Below, one piece after another: positions 12,918-33,442 of a DNA stretch of 45,367 nt (position 1 is its first letter; each line of letters opens with the position of its first letter). A program made the position numbers and the translations under genes. Where the stretch lies: positions 1-45,367 of IMG/VR virus record IMGVR_UViG_3300049797_000001; one strand, written 5' to 3'. This stretch comes from a virus. Under the pieces are notes generated by a model. The model was given only the letters and a program-made list of their open reading frames with translations, did no database searches and was not told the DNA's origin.

Positions 12918-13131
12918 GGTGCAGGAACCTTTCATTGATTGTTTGACGGTGTATTAGTCCATCGACCTGGACGCTTAGACATGCAGTACTGCGTACGTTG
13001 CTATACATTCCTGTAAGCACGGTACCTGTGCGCCATTTCTTTCCCGGAACACGTATGATTACACGATCACCACGCTTGAATTTGGTGCTGGGTATTCTTA
13101 TTGCGCCTTTTATGTTCTGTGTACTAGACAT
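12910..13131 (-). CDS. Small basic SH3/KOW-like protein
   Basis: A 73-residue basic protein starting at ATG 13131 (GGAGGTAGTCC upstream), overlapping the end of the DNA polymerase gene by eight bases. KFKRGDRVIIRVPGKKWRTGTV matches the turn-rich start of an SH3/KOW-like beta barrel, a fold often used for nucleic-acid or protein contacts. Tight coupling to the polymerase suggests a replication accessory role, by inference. Its stop TGA is inside TGAGTCA on this strand. Confidence 0.6.
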   Translation of the reverse strand: MSSTQNIKGAIRIPSTKFKRGDRVIIRVPGKKWRTGTVLTGMYSNVRSTACLSVQVDGLIHRQTINERFLHRV

Positions 13132-15652
13132 GGACTACCTCCATATTGGACCAGCGATGCAGCCCTTTTGGGTCAGCTACGAACCGTTTCGTTTTATCGT
13201 CCCACGCAGATGGATACGAAATCTTGCATTCAGCAGCGATAGATAATGGCTCAGCCTTGCGGCGGCTCCAAGCGTCCTGTATCCATATGGGACTCTCAGC
13301 ATACTTCTTAAGAATACTAAGTGCAGTCTTAGCATAGCGACTTTTAACTTCAACCAGACCCACAAGATTATCATGTACGTTAATTGCAACACGAGCGTAC
13401 CCTTTTGGCCAGTCATCATCTTCCTCCGCTTGATACCATGTCTGCACAACTTTGTCGCCAATTGTACTCTGTGGATAGAACGCTATGACAGACTTTGCAA
13501 CTTCTTCATCTACTGGCTGCAACACACGGAACCTACGGCCAAGTGCATTGTACATGGTCCGTGTCTTCTTGAACATATATTCTTCTTGCTCCCACCAGTG
13601 CATCAGTTCAGGTGTGATCTGGTGGTACAATATGAATGCGTGTGCCGCTCGATGATACGGTAATTCCGTTACTTCGGAGAGCCTAAATCGCTCCATCCGG
13701 TAATTGAGCCCATGACGGCACCTTTTGGCAATGTACCGAATTGTAGGCTGATTATCTTCTGTCCAATCTTTAATTGGTACATCGTCATATGGAACCTTGA
13801 ACATTTCGCTAGCAAGCGCTCGATGGCAGTCATATTTGCCATCCTTCCTGGCTTGTGCAAACTGTTGACGCCACTTAGATATATCGGCCCTGAATGAAAC
13901 CACTTGGGCCTCAGCCTGTGCCAAGTCATAATATATATATTCGCAACCAGGATCACTAACGAAGAACCCTCTGGCTCGCATGGGTTGATTTTGGATATTA
14001 CCCCCTTCACCATTGATAAGCTCACTAGACGATAACCGTCCGGGAGCGTTCTGCACTCCATACTGTTTGAAATCAAAACGGTAGCGTCCATCATCTGACT
14101 CCTTTGCCGCTGCATATGTGCTGCGGAACTTATCCTCTTTCTTCCATCTATCCAATGCGACAAGCATTTCCTTTTCGATCGCTCGCGTCTTGGCATGTTT
14201 CAGAATGTGATTGCGATTGGTCTTGTCTGTAGATTTGCCATGGCCCTGTAGATCAAGCCGCTCGAAAAACAACTCTTTCATTTGTGGCCATGATGCGGGA
14301 TTTGGATTGTACCATTCGTCGTCGGTCGCTTCGTGGACCAATCGATGGAACTCATTTTCCATTGTCGCAACATCTTTATCTATTTCCAAAGAGATCGCAG
14401 CCTTGACAGACTGATCGACCGCGAGGCCATGTACCGTCGCCTCAACCAAATGGGGTTGCGCACGCATGACATGATCAAAGAAGAATTTGCTGAGATTTTG
14501 TTCTTCCAACTCGGCCAGAATTCGATGCCCGACATGATATGTAACTGCTGCGTCTTTGCCATTGTACACCCAAAACTCATTAATATCCCCACCTTCTTTC
14601 CAGTAGTCACCTTCGTCCTTATAATACGGATGTGTCGTATACTGCGAAGTGAGATACCCAAGGTCATGCGGTAATTGGGGATACAAAGTATGGTGACCCA
14701 ACAAAGTATCAAGCCATACCTTGAGTTCAAACCAGTCACGTAGTCGTAGCCAGTACGCATCGAATGACCCTCTCTGTGCTATTATCTTGTGTGAGTCACA
14801 CAGCTTCTGAATTGCCAACCAAAGATCGCATTCCTGCGACAAGCTAAATCGATTACGATTAGCGTCACGCCAATTGACACATATAGCGCGATGACCATTA
14901 TTAGCCAAACCGATGCAAGCCGTCTCGTCGTTGAGACCCTCAATATCCAATGCAACAGGTTTGCTACTACGCTGTAAATCACTAATGTACGCCATAGCGT
15001 CGCGGTATGACGGGTTGATAATAACATCAACTTTGTGTGGTTTGAACACATTGCGATTCACCAGATCAATCTTCTTGCAATCCATCGCAAAAGTAATACC
15101 TGCTTTCGGTTCCCTTAGCGGGTATGCAGGGTTGTTTGCGCAAATAGCTTTTCCCAACTTCCCATTTGGAAGTTTTACGTCCAGGACAGAGCCACGCCAC
15201 TTGCCTATACCTTCTTCGCCAGTTAATGCAGTCAAGGCGTAATTGCCAAGCAGGACTACAGTATCCAATTCTGGCAATTGCTCTAGTTCCCATATTAGCA
15301 TATCCTCCCATTGCGCCAATTCGTTCGGATGTATCTTGTTCTTTGAGTCAGGGTCTAGCTGCGAACTTAATTGCCTTTTACAAACGTTAGTAGAATAAAC
15401 GCTATCAGCGCCAAGGCCATAGCGACCCACAGTTTTCCACAAAAGCTGGCCAGACTGTCCGACGAAAGGACGCTTCTTACGAACCTCCGCAGGGCCAGGA
15501 CCTTCCCCAATAAATGCGATCCTGGAATCCAAAGGTCCGCTAGATATAACTTGCACCTCAAGACCTTGCGTCTCGGCCATTGCATGGAACTGACTTTCTA
15601 ATGTTTCTCTGTCAATGAGATAGCGAGTTTCTCGATTTGCTGTTTGAGCCAT
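13124..15652 (-). CDS. DNA polymerase, family A, with N-terminal uracil-DNA glycosylase-like domain
   Basis: An 842-residue replicative polymerase with three parts. Residues 40-195 form a family 4/5-type UDG fold: motif A GEGPG (50-54) with PFVGQSG (62-68) and motif B NNPAYPLR (173-180), where the usual His is Asn. No four-Cys iron-sulfur set is seen. Residues 230-380 form the 3'-5' exonuclease: Asp236/Glu238, Phe297-Asp298, and Tyr363 with Asp367. Residues 440-842 form the Pol I palm and fingers: motif A YYDLAQAEAQ (Asp576), motif B R639 and K643 in RYIAKRCRHGLNY, motif C VHDN (Asp761, with Asn where Glu is usual). The start at 15652 has AAAGG upstream and overlaps the kinase gene by 55 bases. 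UDG-PolA fusions are known in other phages (for example SPO1). Confidence 0.93.
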   Translation of the reverse strand: MAQTANRETRYLIDRETLESQFHAMAETQGLEVQVISSGPLDSRIAFIGEGPGPAEVRKKRPFVGQSGQLLWKTVGRYGLGADSVYSTNVCKRQLSSQLDPDSKNKIHPNELAQWEDMLIWELEQLPELDTVVLLGNYALTALTGEEGIGKWRGSVLDVKLPNGKLGKAICANNPAYPLREPKAGITFAMDCKKIDLVNRNVFKPHKVDVIINPSYRDAMAYISDLQRSSKPVALDIEGLNDETACIGLANNGHRAICVNWRDANRNRFSLSQECDLWLAIQKLCDSHKIIAQRGSFDAYWLRLRDWFELKVWLDTLLGHHTLYPQLPHDLGYLTSQYTTHPYYKDEGDYWKEGGDINEFWVYNGKDAAVTYHVGHRILAELEEQNLSKFFFDHVMRAQPHLVEATVHGLAVDQSVKAAISLEIDKDVATMENEFHRLVHEATDDEWYNPNPASWPQMKELFFERLDLQGHGKSTDKTNRNHILKHAKTRAIEKEMLVALDRWKKEDKFRSTYAAAKESDDGRYRFDFKQYGVQNAPGRLSSSELINGEGGNIQNQPMRARGFFVSDPGCEYIYYDLAQAEAQVVSFRADISKWRQQFAQARKDGKYDCHRALASEMFKVPYDDVPIKDWTEDNQPTIRYIAKRCRHGLNYRMERFRLSEVTELPYHRAAHAFILYHQITPELMHWWEQEEYMFKKTRTMYNALGRRFRVLQPVDEEVAKSVIAFYPQSTIGDKVVQTWYQAEEDDDWPKGYARVAINVHDNLVGLVEVKSRYAKTALSILKKYAESPIWIQDAWSRRKAEPLSIAAECKISYPSAWDDKTKRFVADPKGLHRWSNMEVVHV

Positions 15653-28762: not shown

Positions 28763-29788
28763 CTATCCGTTCTCAAGTACCACTTCGATAGCATTGCTCG
28801 CACTTTCCAATGCATCAATAGTCGTCTTATCCAACTTATCGGTAATCTTTTCAATCGCCTTGACGAGCAAGCCGCAGATCGCCGCACAAGCTTGTGCAGG
28901 TGTTTGGTTACGTATGGCCTTGTTAGCCTCAGCAACGGCAGGCCGTACCGTTCCAGTCTGCCGCGAACGATGTTGACCACCGTCGCCACCCGACACATTG
29001 GCACCTAGGGACGTAGCGCCCATAACAGCCAATTCCGTAAATGAAGGCTTCGCGGCGAGTTCTACTTTGTTATCGCCTTCACCCACTTTCTGCTTTTCGT
29101 TCAGCAGCACATTGTCGGCGCCGAAGTGTTTCTTAACCTCGGGGCCGGATATCATCAGAGTGCCCGATTTGTCACGCTTGGCAGTGATGCCCTTTTCGAT
29201 GATACCAAGTGCTGCTTGGATTACCTTGTTCATTTGCGTCGTAAAGTTGCTCCGGAATGTCGTTTTCTTTTGGAAGTCCGGGCAATTCTTTTCATTCTCA
29301 CCCGGCATTGGGAAGCTCTCAGCGACGGCCGGCGCGTTAACGATCACGTCAACAATCGTCCCATTCCGATCAGGCTCACTCTGCTTGACTACACGAAAGC
29401 CAAGCGCCACACCTAGCAAGGCGTTAAGTTTTTCCTTCGCCTTTTTGTCCGATCCCACAATATCGGCCAAATCGATACGGCTGTCATTCTCGGCAGCCTT
29501 GACGACTGCGAGCGTTAAGTCGGTTAGGCGGTCATAACGCTTTTGACCTTTGAGATTGTTAATCTCGCTAGTCAAAACGTCAATGCGCTTGTCGTCATTG
29601 AACCACTCGTTAATGATCTTCGGGCCAACATCAAGACTGACAGCACGCTTATTGAGCACGTACAGTCCCGTTCCGATAGTCGGCTCGGCTGGGCCACCAC
29701 GCGGCGTTGGCTTCGATCCACGCGCCGGCTTAGTCTTGGTTGCAGCACGCTCTTGCAAAGCCGCTTTTGCTTTGTTCGTATTAACCAT
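28763..29788 (-). CDS. Unknown early protein, 341 aa
   Basis: The largest gene of the early region. ATG 29788 follows AGAAGGAATGCAAACC. Residues 1-40 are basic and disordered; residues 50-200 look folded (helix LTLAVVKAAEND, strands GTIVDVIVNAP), and the C-terminal 100 residues are helical after a Gly-rich turn. It has its own upstream regulatory region (29.81-29.89 kb) and a terminator, so it is a separate transcription unit, as expected for an abundant early protein such as a host takeover or DNA-binding factor. No family recognised. Confidence 0.68.
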   Translation of the reverse strand: MVNTNKAKAALQERAATKTKPARGSKPTPRGGPAEPTIGTGLYVLNKRAVSLDVGPKIINEWFNDDKRIDVLTSEINNLKGQKRYDRLTDLTLAVVKAAENDSRIDLADIVGSDKKAKEKLNALLGVALGFRVVKQSEPDRNGTIVDVIVNAPAVAESFPMPGENEKNCPDFQKKTTFRSNFTTQMNKVIQAALGIIEKGITAKRDKSGTLMISGPEVKKHFGADNVLLNEKQKVGEGDNKVELAAKPSFTELAVMGATSLGANVSGGDGGQHRSRQTGTVRPAVAEANKAIRNQTPAQACAAICGLLVKAIEKITDKLDKTTIDALESASNAIEVVLENG

Positions 29789-29862
29789 GGTTTGCATTCC
29801 TTCTGTTACGTTTGAGTCACAATGTAACCGTACAGTCACACTGTTGCATATTTACAACACTA

Positions 29863-30897: not shown

Positions 30898-31300
30898 CTA
30901 TTTGCGCTTGATTGCGCGCCATGCTCACCATTCGACTTGCTACCTTGTCGCTCTAGCGCTCTCTTGCCTAGAATTGGACCACATAGAGCGAGGCGACTGG
31001 TTAGCTTGCGACACAATGAGCATGGCGCGCAACCATGGTTAGTCGCCTTTCCCGTTCATACGTTAGGGGCGTTTCGTACCTGTCGCATGGCTTGTTTCAG
31101 ACCCTGCGAAGGCTTGGCCGTGACTGCGCGTGCGATACGTCGCCTTTGGCTTGACGTACAGAGCGCAGGCTCTACCGGTGCGGACCCTAGTCCGTTGCCC
31201 TGGGGGCGTTTCGTCTATCCAATCAACCTCCTATCAACTTCTAACTATCCACATTATGATATACCGTTGTGGCGGAATTAAGGCATTTCGATCACGAATT
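30898..31300. other. Gene-poor structured region upstream of the leftward block
   Basis: No convincing gene on either strand. It contains a 16-bp perfect inverted repeat (30912-30927 / 31017-31032), several small stems such as AGAGC-N4-GCTCT (31160-31173) and CGGAC-N4-GTCCG (31181-31194 approximately), and two copies of GGGGCGTTTCGT (31066-31077, 31203-31214). A poor leftward promoter candidate (TTAATT-17-CATAAT, near 31255-31283) could transcribe it as an early leader or small RNA. Confidence 0.5.
30912..31032. repeat. 16-bp perfect inverted repeat enclosing 89 bases
   Basis: TTGCGCGCCATGCTCA (30912-30927) pairs exactly with 31017-31032. Inside, CGCTCT/AGAGCG (30949-30954 / 30985-30990) can form a second stem. 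The whole can fold as one long hairpin, in DNA or in the leader RNA of the zinc-ribbon gene. Confidence 0.8.
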
Positions 31301-31476
31301 GTTACAATGTGAGTCACACACCGATCAGCAATAGTCCTACGGCTCGGCGGAATAGTCCTACGGACGGACCGGACGGACGGCTCGCGACGGCTTTTACCTT
31401 ATCGCAAGCGCAAGGCGCGCAATAGTCCTATGGGAGGACACGATCGGCGGGCAATAGTCCTATCCTCTTTACCGGG

Positions 31477-31520
31477 GCGATAGGTAATTCCCTGCGCCGT
31501 AGGCACGGATTACCTATCGC
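31477..31520. repeat. 12-bp perfect inverted repeat in the control region
   Basis: GCGATAGGTAAT (31477-31488) and ATTACCTATCGC (31509-31520), 20 bases apart; two further pairs form if one base is bulged. It lies between iteron copies. Confidence 0.75.
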
Positions 31521-31653
31521 ATTGCCTATTTCATTCCTATTTCCTATCCTATTCCTATTCATGTGACTCAAAGCATATCATATGTGATCCTATTCCTACG
31601 TCTATGGAGTGTAATGTCGCACTAAATCGTGCACGTCATTGCCAAAATCACCT

Positions 31654-31682
31654 TCAAACCGTTTTCAAACCGCAATCAAACC
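31654..31682. repeat. Three TCAAACC words at 11-bp spacing
   Basis: TCAAACC occurs at 31654, 31665 and 31676, one helical turn apart, followed by a TTTGAGTCAAA motif at 31686. Helically phased short words suggest a protein bound along one face. Confidence 0.6.
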
Positions 31683-31872
31683 ACATTTGAGTCAAACACC
31701 ATAGGACTATTCCCCCACACAATAGTCCTATTTCGTTCCTATCTGTGCCTATGGCGCGTAGGAATAGGCCTATGGTCCTACCTCCATGCCCCCCCTTTTC
31801 AAAAGAGTCCTATGTATAGTCCTACGCCTAAAGGGGGGCGAGCGAAGTGAGGTACAGCGTCATCGTAAACGT

Positions 31873-31920
31873 TGTGGGAGAAACTGTGGGAGAAACTGTG
31901 GGAGAAACTGTGGGAGAATG
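31873..31920. repeat. Four tandem 12-bp repeats
   Basis: TGTGGGAGAAAC repeated at 31873, 31885 and 31897, with a fourth copy at 31909 differing in its last two bases (TG). The array ends directly at TGAGTCAAAA (31921). The strand asymmetry (purine-rich on plus) and an A-rich stretch downstream (31960-32010) fit an origin. Confidence 0.85.
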
Positions 31921-32015
31921 TGAGTCAAAATGAATGTGCAAAGTATGAGAATCGAGGCCAAAATGCGTACAAAACGCATACAAAAACTAGTCAAAACCAT
32001 AGTCAAAAAACGACG

Positions 32016-32063
32016 GTCATATGGTATATCCGTGCCTAGCGGCGATAGGATATACCATATGAC
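32016..32063. repeat. 16-bp perfect inverted repeat
   Basis: GTCATATGGTATATCC (32016-32031) with its exact complement at 32048-32063 and a 16-base spacer. It borders the A-rich part of the control region. Its GGTATATC word also occurs near the 27.8 kb promoter (27845) and at 31250 in the opposite sense. Confidence 0.8.
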
Positions 32064-32131
32064 AGACCCGGAGAGATAGAATGGGACCTATGCAGTGGCT
32101 AGGCAATGGCTAGGCACTGGCGAGTGCGAGA

Positions 32132-32491
32132 TCATGGTGTGAGTTGTATAGGTAATGAATTCATATAGCAACAACGATAAAAGAATATAGCATCAGCTTT
32201 TGTTTTGAATCTGTATTGTTTGAGGGAAACACGATTACGATCGCAATCCATAATAATATATTGTACGAACCATTTGTTATTCTTCTTTATTATAACTACC
32301 CAATTTCTAGGCGCACCTTCTTTGTAATGATATGCGTACCATGCATCTTTCAGAAATGGGTTGTCTTTTTCTATAGATGCACGTGCCTGAATATCAGCGA
32401 ATGATCCATGACCTTTGGCGATGTAGTCTGATGATGAGGGGTTGTGTTTGAATAATCGATTATGTTTGTTAGACCATTTATAGCGTGGCAT
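32132..32491 (-). CDS. Hypothetical basic protein of the control region, 119 aa
   Basis: The only leftward gene between the origin-like region and the divergent promoters. The protein is basic and aromatic (KWSNKHNRLFKHNP, WYAYHYKEGAPRNWVVIIKK, YRFKTKADAIFFYRC), likely a compact alpha/beta nucleic-acid or protein binder. ATG 32491 lies six bases after GTGAGTCAAAT, with no clear ribosome site, so translation may depend on the motif region or a leaderless mode. It has its own promoter (32571-32599). It is a candidate early regulator or origin-binding protein. Confidence 0.6.
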   Translation of the reverse strand: MPRYKWSNKHNRLFKHNPSSSDYIAKGHGSFADIQARASIEKDNPFLKDAWYAYHYKEGAPRNWVVIIKKNNKWFVQYIIMDCDRNRVSLKQYRFKTKADAIFFYRCCYMNSLPIQLTP

Positions 32492-32570: not shown

Positions 32571-32599
32571 ACAGTAGCACACTTTTTCATACTTGTCAA
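32571..32599 (-). promoter_or_regulatory. Leftward promoter of the 32132 gene
   Basis: On the minus strand TTGACA (32599-32594), 17-base spacer, TACTGT (32576-32571). The -35 is consensus; the -10 is weak. An operator copy (32606-32622) starts six bases upstream of the -35, an activator-type position. Confidence 0.5.
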
Positions 32600-32605
32600 T
32601 AGGGG

Positions 32606-32622
32606 TGCGTCGATATGTCGCA
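32606..32622. promoter_or_regulatory. Operator TGCGWC-N5-GWCGCA, copy 2
   Basis: TGCGTCGATATGTCGCA differs from the 27859 copy at one base. Together with copy 3 it also forms a larger inverted repeat: GGTGCGTC-N5-GTCGCAGT (32604-32624) faces its complement at 32699-32719. Confidence 0.6.
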
Positions 32623-32700
32623 GTCATCAGCATAATGATGGCGCGTGAGCGGCATCATATGCGGTTCATGGATATCATTTGATGAGGTATGCGATATCAC

Positions 32701-32717
32701 TGCGACACTATGACGCA
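32701..32717. promoter_or_regulatory. Operator TGCGWC-N5-GWCGCA, copy 3
   Basis: TGCGACACTATGACGCA, in inverted orientation relative to copy 2 and 95 bases from it, between the leftward and rightward promoters. GATATCA half-sites lie at 32671, 32693 and 32778. Confidence 0.6.
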
Positions 32718-32811
32718 CCGATATATCATTAAAATTGGTTATTTTGGGTTATTTTGAGTCAAATGTGGGTGTATCACGATATCATTTGTGATATATTATG
32801 TATATTATTAG

Positions 32812-33180: not shown

Positions 33181-33408
33181 ATGCATGGTCGACCAAAGCG
33201 GCAGTGGAGAAAGTTCATGCCATTTCCTGGTGAGTTGAAAGACGAGGCTGATAGGCGCGAACAATTGTTGCTTCAACAACAACGCGATGCTGCGGCTGCG
33301 GCTGGTACGCCACTGACTCAGCAGCAGATTGCTACAGACGAAAATGCTGATCTGGCTGCTGAAGCCGCTCAGTTGCTGATCGAAGCTCAGACCGGTCAAC
33401 CGGTTTGA
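33181..33408 (+). CDS. Hypothetical Gln/Ala-rich protein, 75 aa
   Basis: Starts one base after the previous stop. A basic start (MHGRPKRQWRKF) is followed by a long Gln/Ala/Glu helix (REQLLLQQQRDAAAAAG). The stop TGA at 33406 is inside the TTTGAGTCAAA motif. Possibly a DNA-packaging accessory by position; no family recognised. Confidence 0.55.
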   Translation: MHGRPKRQWRKFMPFPGELKDEADRREQLLLQQQRDAAAAAGTPLTQQQIATDENADLAAEAAQLLIEAQTGQPV

Positions 33409-33442
33409 GTCAAACTCATGACTCTGATACTGGAGAAGTTCA

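Follow-up and report, generated by a model that had tools for sequence, protein, structure and literature searches.

Twin outward-pointing hairpins mark a putative bidirectional replication origin and early control region in a family of uncultured phages

The window analysed here is the whole 45,367 bp of the virus record IMGVR_UViG_3300049797_000001, in which positions 31330-32071 may be both a bidirectional origin of replication and an early control region, with twin hairpins as putative single-strand priming signals and a repeat array as an accessory, a reading that we regard as evenly poised between right and wrong. The hairpins, one per strand, combine an invariant loop with covarying stems, and flank a gene-free interval of ~0.5 kb that holds the global GC-skew switch. 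On comparative grounds it is these hairpins, not the array, that are the conserved hallmark of the control region, and they were the feature not singled out by an earlier, sequence-only reading of this DNA.

The ends of the record share a 159-bp terminal repeat, 99% identical, and therefore the window is a complete genome, circular or circularly permuted, of ~45.2 kb. Its leftward genes encode a UDG-PolA fusion, a nucleotide kinase, a RecD-like SF1 helicase, a Sak4-like protein and an SSB-like DUF669 protein; the rightward genes include those for the terminase, portal and tape measure. Searches with the DNA, the terminase and the product of gene 28763 found no close relative among GenBank phages, with terminase matches only below 60%. 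The terminase had no match in GTDB genomes, and the polymerase had a single match there, at 24%, on an uncultured Prevotella contig. Many related contigs are nevertheless present in IMG/VR, several of them complete and syntenic with the window. Judged by the GenBank phage comparison, in which no cultured member was found, the family appears to be uncultured.

Both hairpins carry the same loop core, CCGTGCCT(N)CGGCG (14-15 bases), which the control-region scan found once per strand, each time within a long inverted repeat (Table 1). Across the family they are single stem-loops of 44-53 nt with stems of 9-17 bp, and they point outward: in every case the left hairpin occupies the - strand and the right hairpin the + strand, 430-615 bp apart in all loci reaching both sides. 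The pair persists to a terminase identity as low as ~57%, and all complete relatives with the loop have one structured, sequence-specific hairpin per strand with that same loop. Both window hairpins fold as DNA better than all 200 shuffles, and the right one is the strongest long-stem hairpin of the genome. The motif CCCGG lies 3' of 18 of 29 stems, versus 5' of five.

Table 1. Elements of the control region, numbered by position in the window
Feature	Position	Strand	Description
TGA[C/G]TCA sites	31310..31927	.	31310, 31564, 31688 and 31921; four of the genome's 64
Array of AATAGTCCTA	31330..31824	.	6 exact, 3 one-mismatch and 1 two-mismatch copies; near-palindromic core TAGKMCTA
CCCGG motif	31472..31476	-	3' side of left stem
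Left hairpin	31477..31520	-	12-bp stem GCGATAGGTAAT, loop core CCGTGCCTACGGCG; model match 31473-31523, E 1.4e-5; DNA fold z -3.8
Possible third, degenerate hairpin	31735..31764	+	Related loop CTGTGCCTATGGCGCG; weak evidence; similar strings in relatives L101, L111 and L145
C-tract, two array boxes, G-tract	31789..31840	.	Contains the cumulative GC-skew minimum, 31832
Short tandem repeat	31873..31930	+	12-bp unit TGTGGGAGAAAC, three perfect copies and a partial one
A-rich stretch	31935..32015	+	62% A+T, 47% A; between tandem repeat and right hairpin
Right hairpin	32016..32063	+	Perfect 14-bp stem GTCATATGGTATAT (16 bp with CC/GG), loop core CCGTGCCTAGCGGCG; model match 32014-32066, E 3.2e-5; DNA fold z -5.0
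CCCGG motif	32067..32071	+	3' side of right stem

A covariance model trained on nine hairpins, none of them from the window, returned 60 matches in 800 kb, nearly all at twin-hairpin sites (some being the same sites on the opposite strand). The model had no match in relatives below ~54% polymerase identity, a point against the priming reading. Across 31 distinct sequences, 92% of cells were paired, against 68% in shuffles and at most 49% when slid, and 142 cells were double-changed, against 46 in shuffles; the alignment was fitted to the structure and is thus somewhat favourable to covariation, although the margin is large. Compensatory change occurs in 12 of the 15 outer stem pairs, and the apical helix is invariant. 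The stems differ in sequence while covarying strongly around an invariant loop. When the whole collection was scanned for the loop 16-mer, family members had 7-15 net stem pairs, and unrelated contigs with the same 16 bases 2-6, relative to a random level with a 95% quantile of 5 and a 99% quantile of 7. Matches outside the family are mostly chance, and as these contigs have no stem they serve as a natural control for the hairpins. The 14-base loop and covarying stem together are a marker that locates the probable origin in every relative with both sides of the region.

A more distant phage (L191/G019) has the twin-hairpin layout at 32760-32796 and 33369-33409, with an altered loop, CGTGCCT(GA)CGGCG, and a skew minimum (33149) that also falls between its two hairpins.

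The sequence-only reading had proposed a replication origin here, to be checked by cumulative GC skew on the circular genome, and this check came out in its favour: the minimum lies in the control region, between the C-tract and the G-tract, and in each of the 10 complete genomes examined that have the pair (the window and nine relatives) the global minimum falls between the hairpins. The skew flips inside gene-free DNA, no conserved gene overlapping 31330-31826, as that reading had also held. The arrangement of C-run on the left and G-run on the right is repeated in relatives; in most of them the + strand of the gene-free interval is rich in C over its left half and in G over its right half. 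Two operons diverge at the skew switch, and transcription is therefore a confounder that could cause the skew. The sole gene coded against its arm, gene 32132 to the right of the origin, has 12 G versus 25 C at third positions (p 0.047), following its position; in its homologue in the relative G001 the counts are 19 G and 23 C, and the positional skew is not clear. The origin reading is supported, not proven.

The same hairpins could instead be RNA elements in two divergent early leaders, acting in put-/nut-like anti-termination or in processing, with the array as immunity-type repressor operators between divergent promoters, an alternative that we consider unlikely yet the most serious of those weighed. 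The hairpins point outward on both sides of the control region as the operons diverge, and many of the hairpins have a TGASTCA site upstream. The likeness is to putL and putR of HK022 and nutL and nutR of lambda, which are also two related hairpin elements, divergent, around a phage control region; those of HK022 lie downstream of PL and PR, with putR ~270 nt from the start (PMC9378689). However, put comprises two stem-loops in ~70 nt of RNA and boxB is a short hairpin, whereas each window element is a single stem of 9-17 bp, low in wobble pairs, with a skew minimum between the copies that leader RNA alone does not explain. Moreover, sigma-70 promoters in the interval are not above chance, and neither a repressor nor an N-like gene was recognised. 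The wobble pairs can be read both ways. G.T pairs are modestly more frequent than mirror A.C pairs (21 of 393 versus 9 of 379), which argues that one sense strand is folded; they are few in absolute terms, which leans weakly towards DNA, and the comparison did not settle RNA versus DNA. As the displaced strand and the outward RNA are identical in sequence, neither strand choice nor comparative data can separate the two functions. Two particular RNA identities were discarded: an intrinsic terminator, since the stems end without T-runs (none of 29 stems has TTTT in the 12 nt that follow it, and no terminator was found in 31200-32200), and a known Rfam family, since no curated model matched at the hairpins, the best matches being below gathering scores and elsewhere.

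The array itself was described accurately by the sequence-only reading, with all six exact and four near copies found in both orientations. Exact copies of AATAGTCCTA start at 31330, 31351, 31421, 31453 and 31721 on the + strand and at 31702 on the - strand, one-mismatch copies at 31763, 31803 and 31815, and a two-mismatch copy at 31771. The claim that the word exceeds chance and is confined to this region likewise stands, as dinucleotide shuffles predict 0.03 exact copies in the whole window, no exact copy occurs elsewhere in the record, and the sole one-mismatch copy outside the control region is at 663. The accompanying features were also located: the copies at 31702 and 31721 pair as an 11-bp hairpin, CCTATT/CCTATTCC runs occupy 31525-31559, and the A-rich stretch, at 62% A+T versus 53% overall, is a possible unwinding region. 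In several relatives, too, a short tandem repeat lies between centre and right hairpin, its sequence being private.

What the array does is less certain, and the proposal that it is iteron-like survives only in part. A classical iteron set for a phage Rep or O-type initiator, to which the hairpins would be secondary, is an improbable explanation of the region. The sites are dense and near-palindromic, and accompanied by the A-rich stretch and the skew minimum. The core TAGKMCTA occurs eight times in the control region and nowhere else in the window, and array-bearing relatives keep 4-8 boxes in the same region (six in G001, four in G002, five in G010/G011). Half-sites of the form RTAGG/CCTAY reach 23 per 500 bp in the window array, where the maximum elsewhere is four; the peaks are 23-28 in the window, G001 and G002 and 17-19 in G011 and L111, over a background of 4-8 elsewhere in the same complete genomes. 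Such dense half-site clusters occupy the same position in three branches of related phages. However, the peak is absent from the sub-clade of G003-G006 and G012, which has A/C-rich repeats (CAACAACCAA and similar) in its place and otherwise the same control region, with the hairpins kept. On the terminase tree the array-bearing genomes fall in three branches and the array-less ones lie together on one side of a branch with weak support (50/19), a pattern that would fit a single loss. The array is therefore not the part that the whole family conserves. Furthermore, it is irregularly spaced, with gaps between exact and one-mismatch copies of 21, 70, 32, 249, 19, 42, 40 and 12 bp in both orientations, rather than the phased tandem array of regular, same-direction repeats at about two helical turns expected of iterons.

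Nor was a cognate initiator detected, in agreement with the sequence-only reading, which had recognised no classical one. Models for Rep_3 (PF01051) and O (PF04492) were negative in the window and four relatives, and PHROG and Pfam scans revealed neither; the Toprim_2 primase (PF13155), Prim-Pol (PF09250), DnaB and DnaG were not found in the window and four relatives; some or all control genomes were positive for each primase, DnaB, O and Rep_3 model. No RepA-type ring helicase was found. A DnaA-dependent origin was rejected, as 31300-32200 contains no DnaA box (TTATNCACA, up to one mismatch). In our preferred reading of hairpins as priming signals, the AATAGTCCTA array is an accessory, lineage-specific cluster of putative protein-binding sites, not the defining element. 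In several relatives the left hairpin has a copy of the array box as its 3' arm (AGTCCTATCC), and one protein might therefore contact both.

The product of gene 32132-32491 (- strand; 119 aa, no family match), which the sequence-only reading had put forward for footprinting, is unlikely to bind the array, because the gene, inserted just right of the right hairpin, is confined to the window and G001, and the array is also present in G002, G011 and L111. Gene 34575 was seen only alongside the array among the compared genomes, save one weak 30% match in the array-less G012, but it resembles a late gene of the head region and is probably a marker of phylogeny. Gene 28763-29839 (- strand) lies close to the origin in the leftward operon and encodes a conserved protein of 358 aa that has neither a database match nor a credible match to the PDB by fold or profile; its AlphaFold model (mean pLDDT 70; helix-helix-helix-strand-strand) hints at a winged helix, making it a candidate only.

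That the hairpins are recombinase sites, an invertible segment or protelomerase sites is very improbable, for although ~0.5 kb is flanked by two inverted copies of one core, the arms vary between copies and genomes around a constant spacer, whereas recombinase sites show the opposite; neither a tyrosine nor a serine recombinase was found, and in the relatives read the interior keeps one orientation, with the C-run on the left and the G-run on the right.

Other repeated sites extend beyond the control region. The palindrome TTTGA[C/G]TCAAA (core TGASTCA) occurs 64 times in the window versus 7.6 expected (for example at 1309, 7286, 12038, 31564, 33847 and 36953), and in the right arm 14 of 28 sites are no more than 30 bp from a gene boundary, versus 2.4 expected. 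Complete relatives have 30-64 copies each, and phages below ~52% terminase identity have few or none. The layout resembles the stoperators of Cluster A mycobacteriophages, although the window's sites are palindromic and more numerous; no repressor gene for them was identified. A further palindrome, TGCGACA-N-TATGTCGCA-like, recurs near the right flank of the control region, at 32599-32724 in the window, downstream of the right hairpin in L108 and L124, and near contig position 1670 in G002.

Known systems offer partial parallels to the proposed priming hairpins. The F plasmid Frpo and similar single-stranded DNA promoters are folded single strands recognised to start a primer or transcript, Frpo being used after conjugative entry; the likeness to the window hairpins is one of working analogy only. 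The IncQ plasmid RSF1010 has ssiA and ssiB, one per strand, primed by RepB' (PMC4434180, PMC4234260). Its oriV is similar in having one hairpin signal per strand, of conserved strand-specific sequence, near a cluster of protein-binding repeats, and there is a GTG in the conserved loop of the window hairpins (CCGTGCC). Searches of the window with the Prim-Pol and Toprim_2 models revealed no RepB'-type primase, and no RepA-type ring helicase was found; unlike RSF1010, the window has no regularly spaced RepC iterons, and its loop is invariant while its stems are free to vary. The stem-loops at the putative origins of pRN1 and phage BIP-1 share with those of the window a low conservation of sequence and high conservation of structure (PMC4234260), but each is a single large stem-loop (~100 nt) beside an AEP primase-SF3 helicase gene, whereas the window has two short hairpins and no such gene.

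If the hairpins do prime replication, the DNA would open between them, through divergent G-rich transcripts or a phage protein on the array, whose sites may be bound by a dimeric protein, regulator or initiator, with a part in opening or controlling the region. Central opening would displace the + strand rightward and the - strand leftward, so that each displaced strand bears exactly one hairpin, which it would fold. A priming enzyme would then read the loop. Given that no DnaG, DnaB, Prim-Pol, O or Rep_3 was detected in the window or four relatives, this enzyme would be either the primase or the RNA polymerase of the host, or else a phage protein that was not recognised. It would start a strand for the phage PolA to extend.

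By a residue match read by eye, the UDG-fused family-A polymerase (13124-15652, - strand) has a histidine, H647, where E. coli Pol I has Phe762, in the motif R-x3-K-x3-H-G-x2-Y; it is invariant in nine relatives. The viral groups covered by PMC6302109 have Tyr, Phe or Leu at this position.

More broadly, and more tentatively, a family of uncultured PolA phages in which neither a primase nor a ring helicase is recognisable could possibly start replication bidirectionally from twin strand-specific hairpins, the invariant loop being read by a host or unrecognised enzyme and the protein-binding arrays between them being interchangeable, which would amount to a single-strand-initiation origin in tailed phages. 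Were the hairpins to prime replication, they would represent a compact single-strand initiation module in such phages, and would explain how DNA synthesis starts in a PolA phage without a primase of its own.
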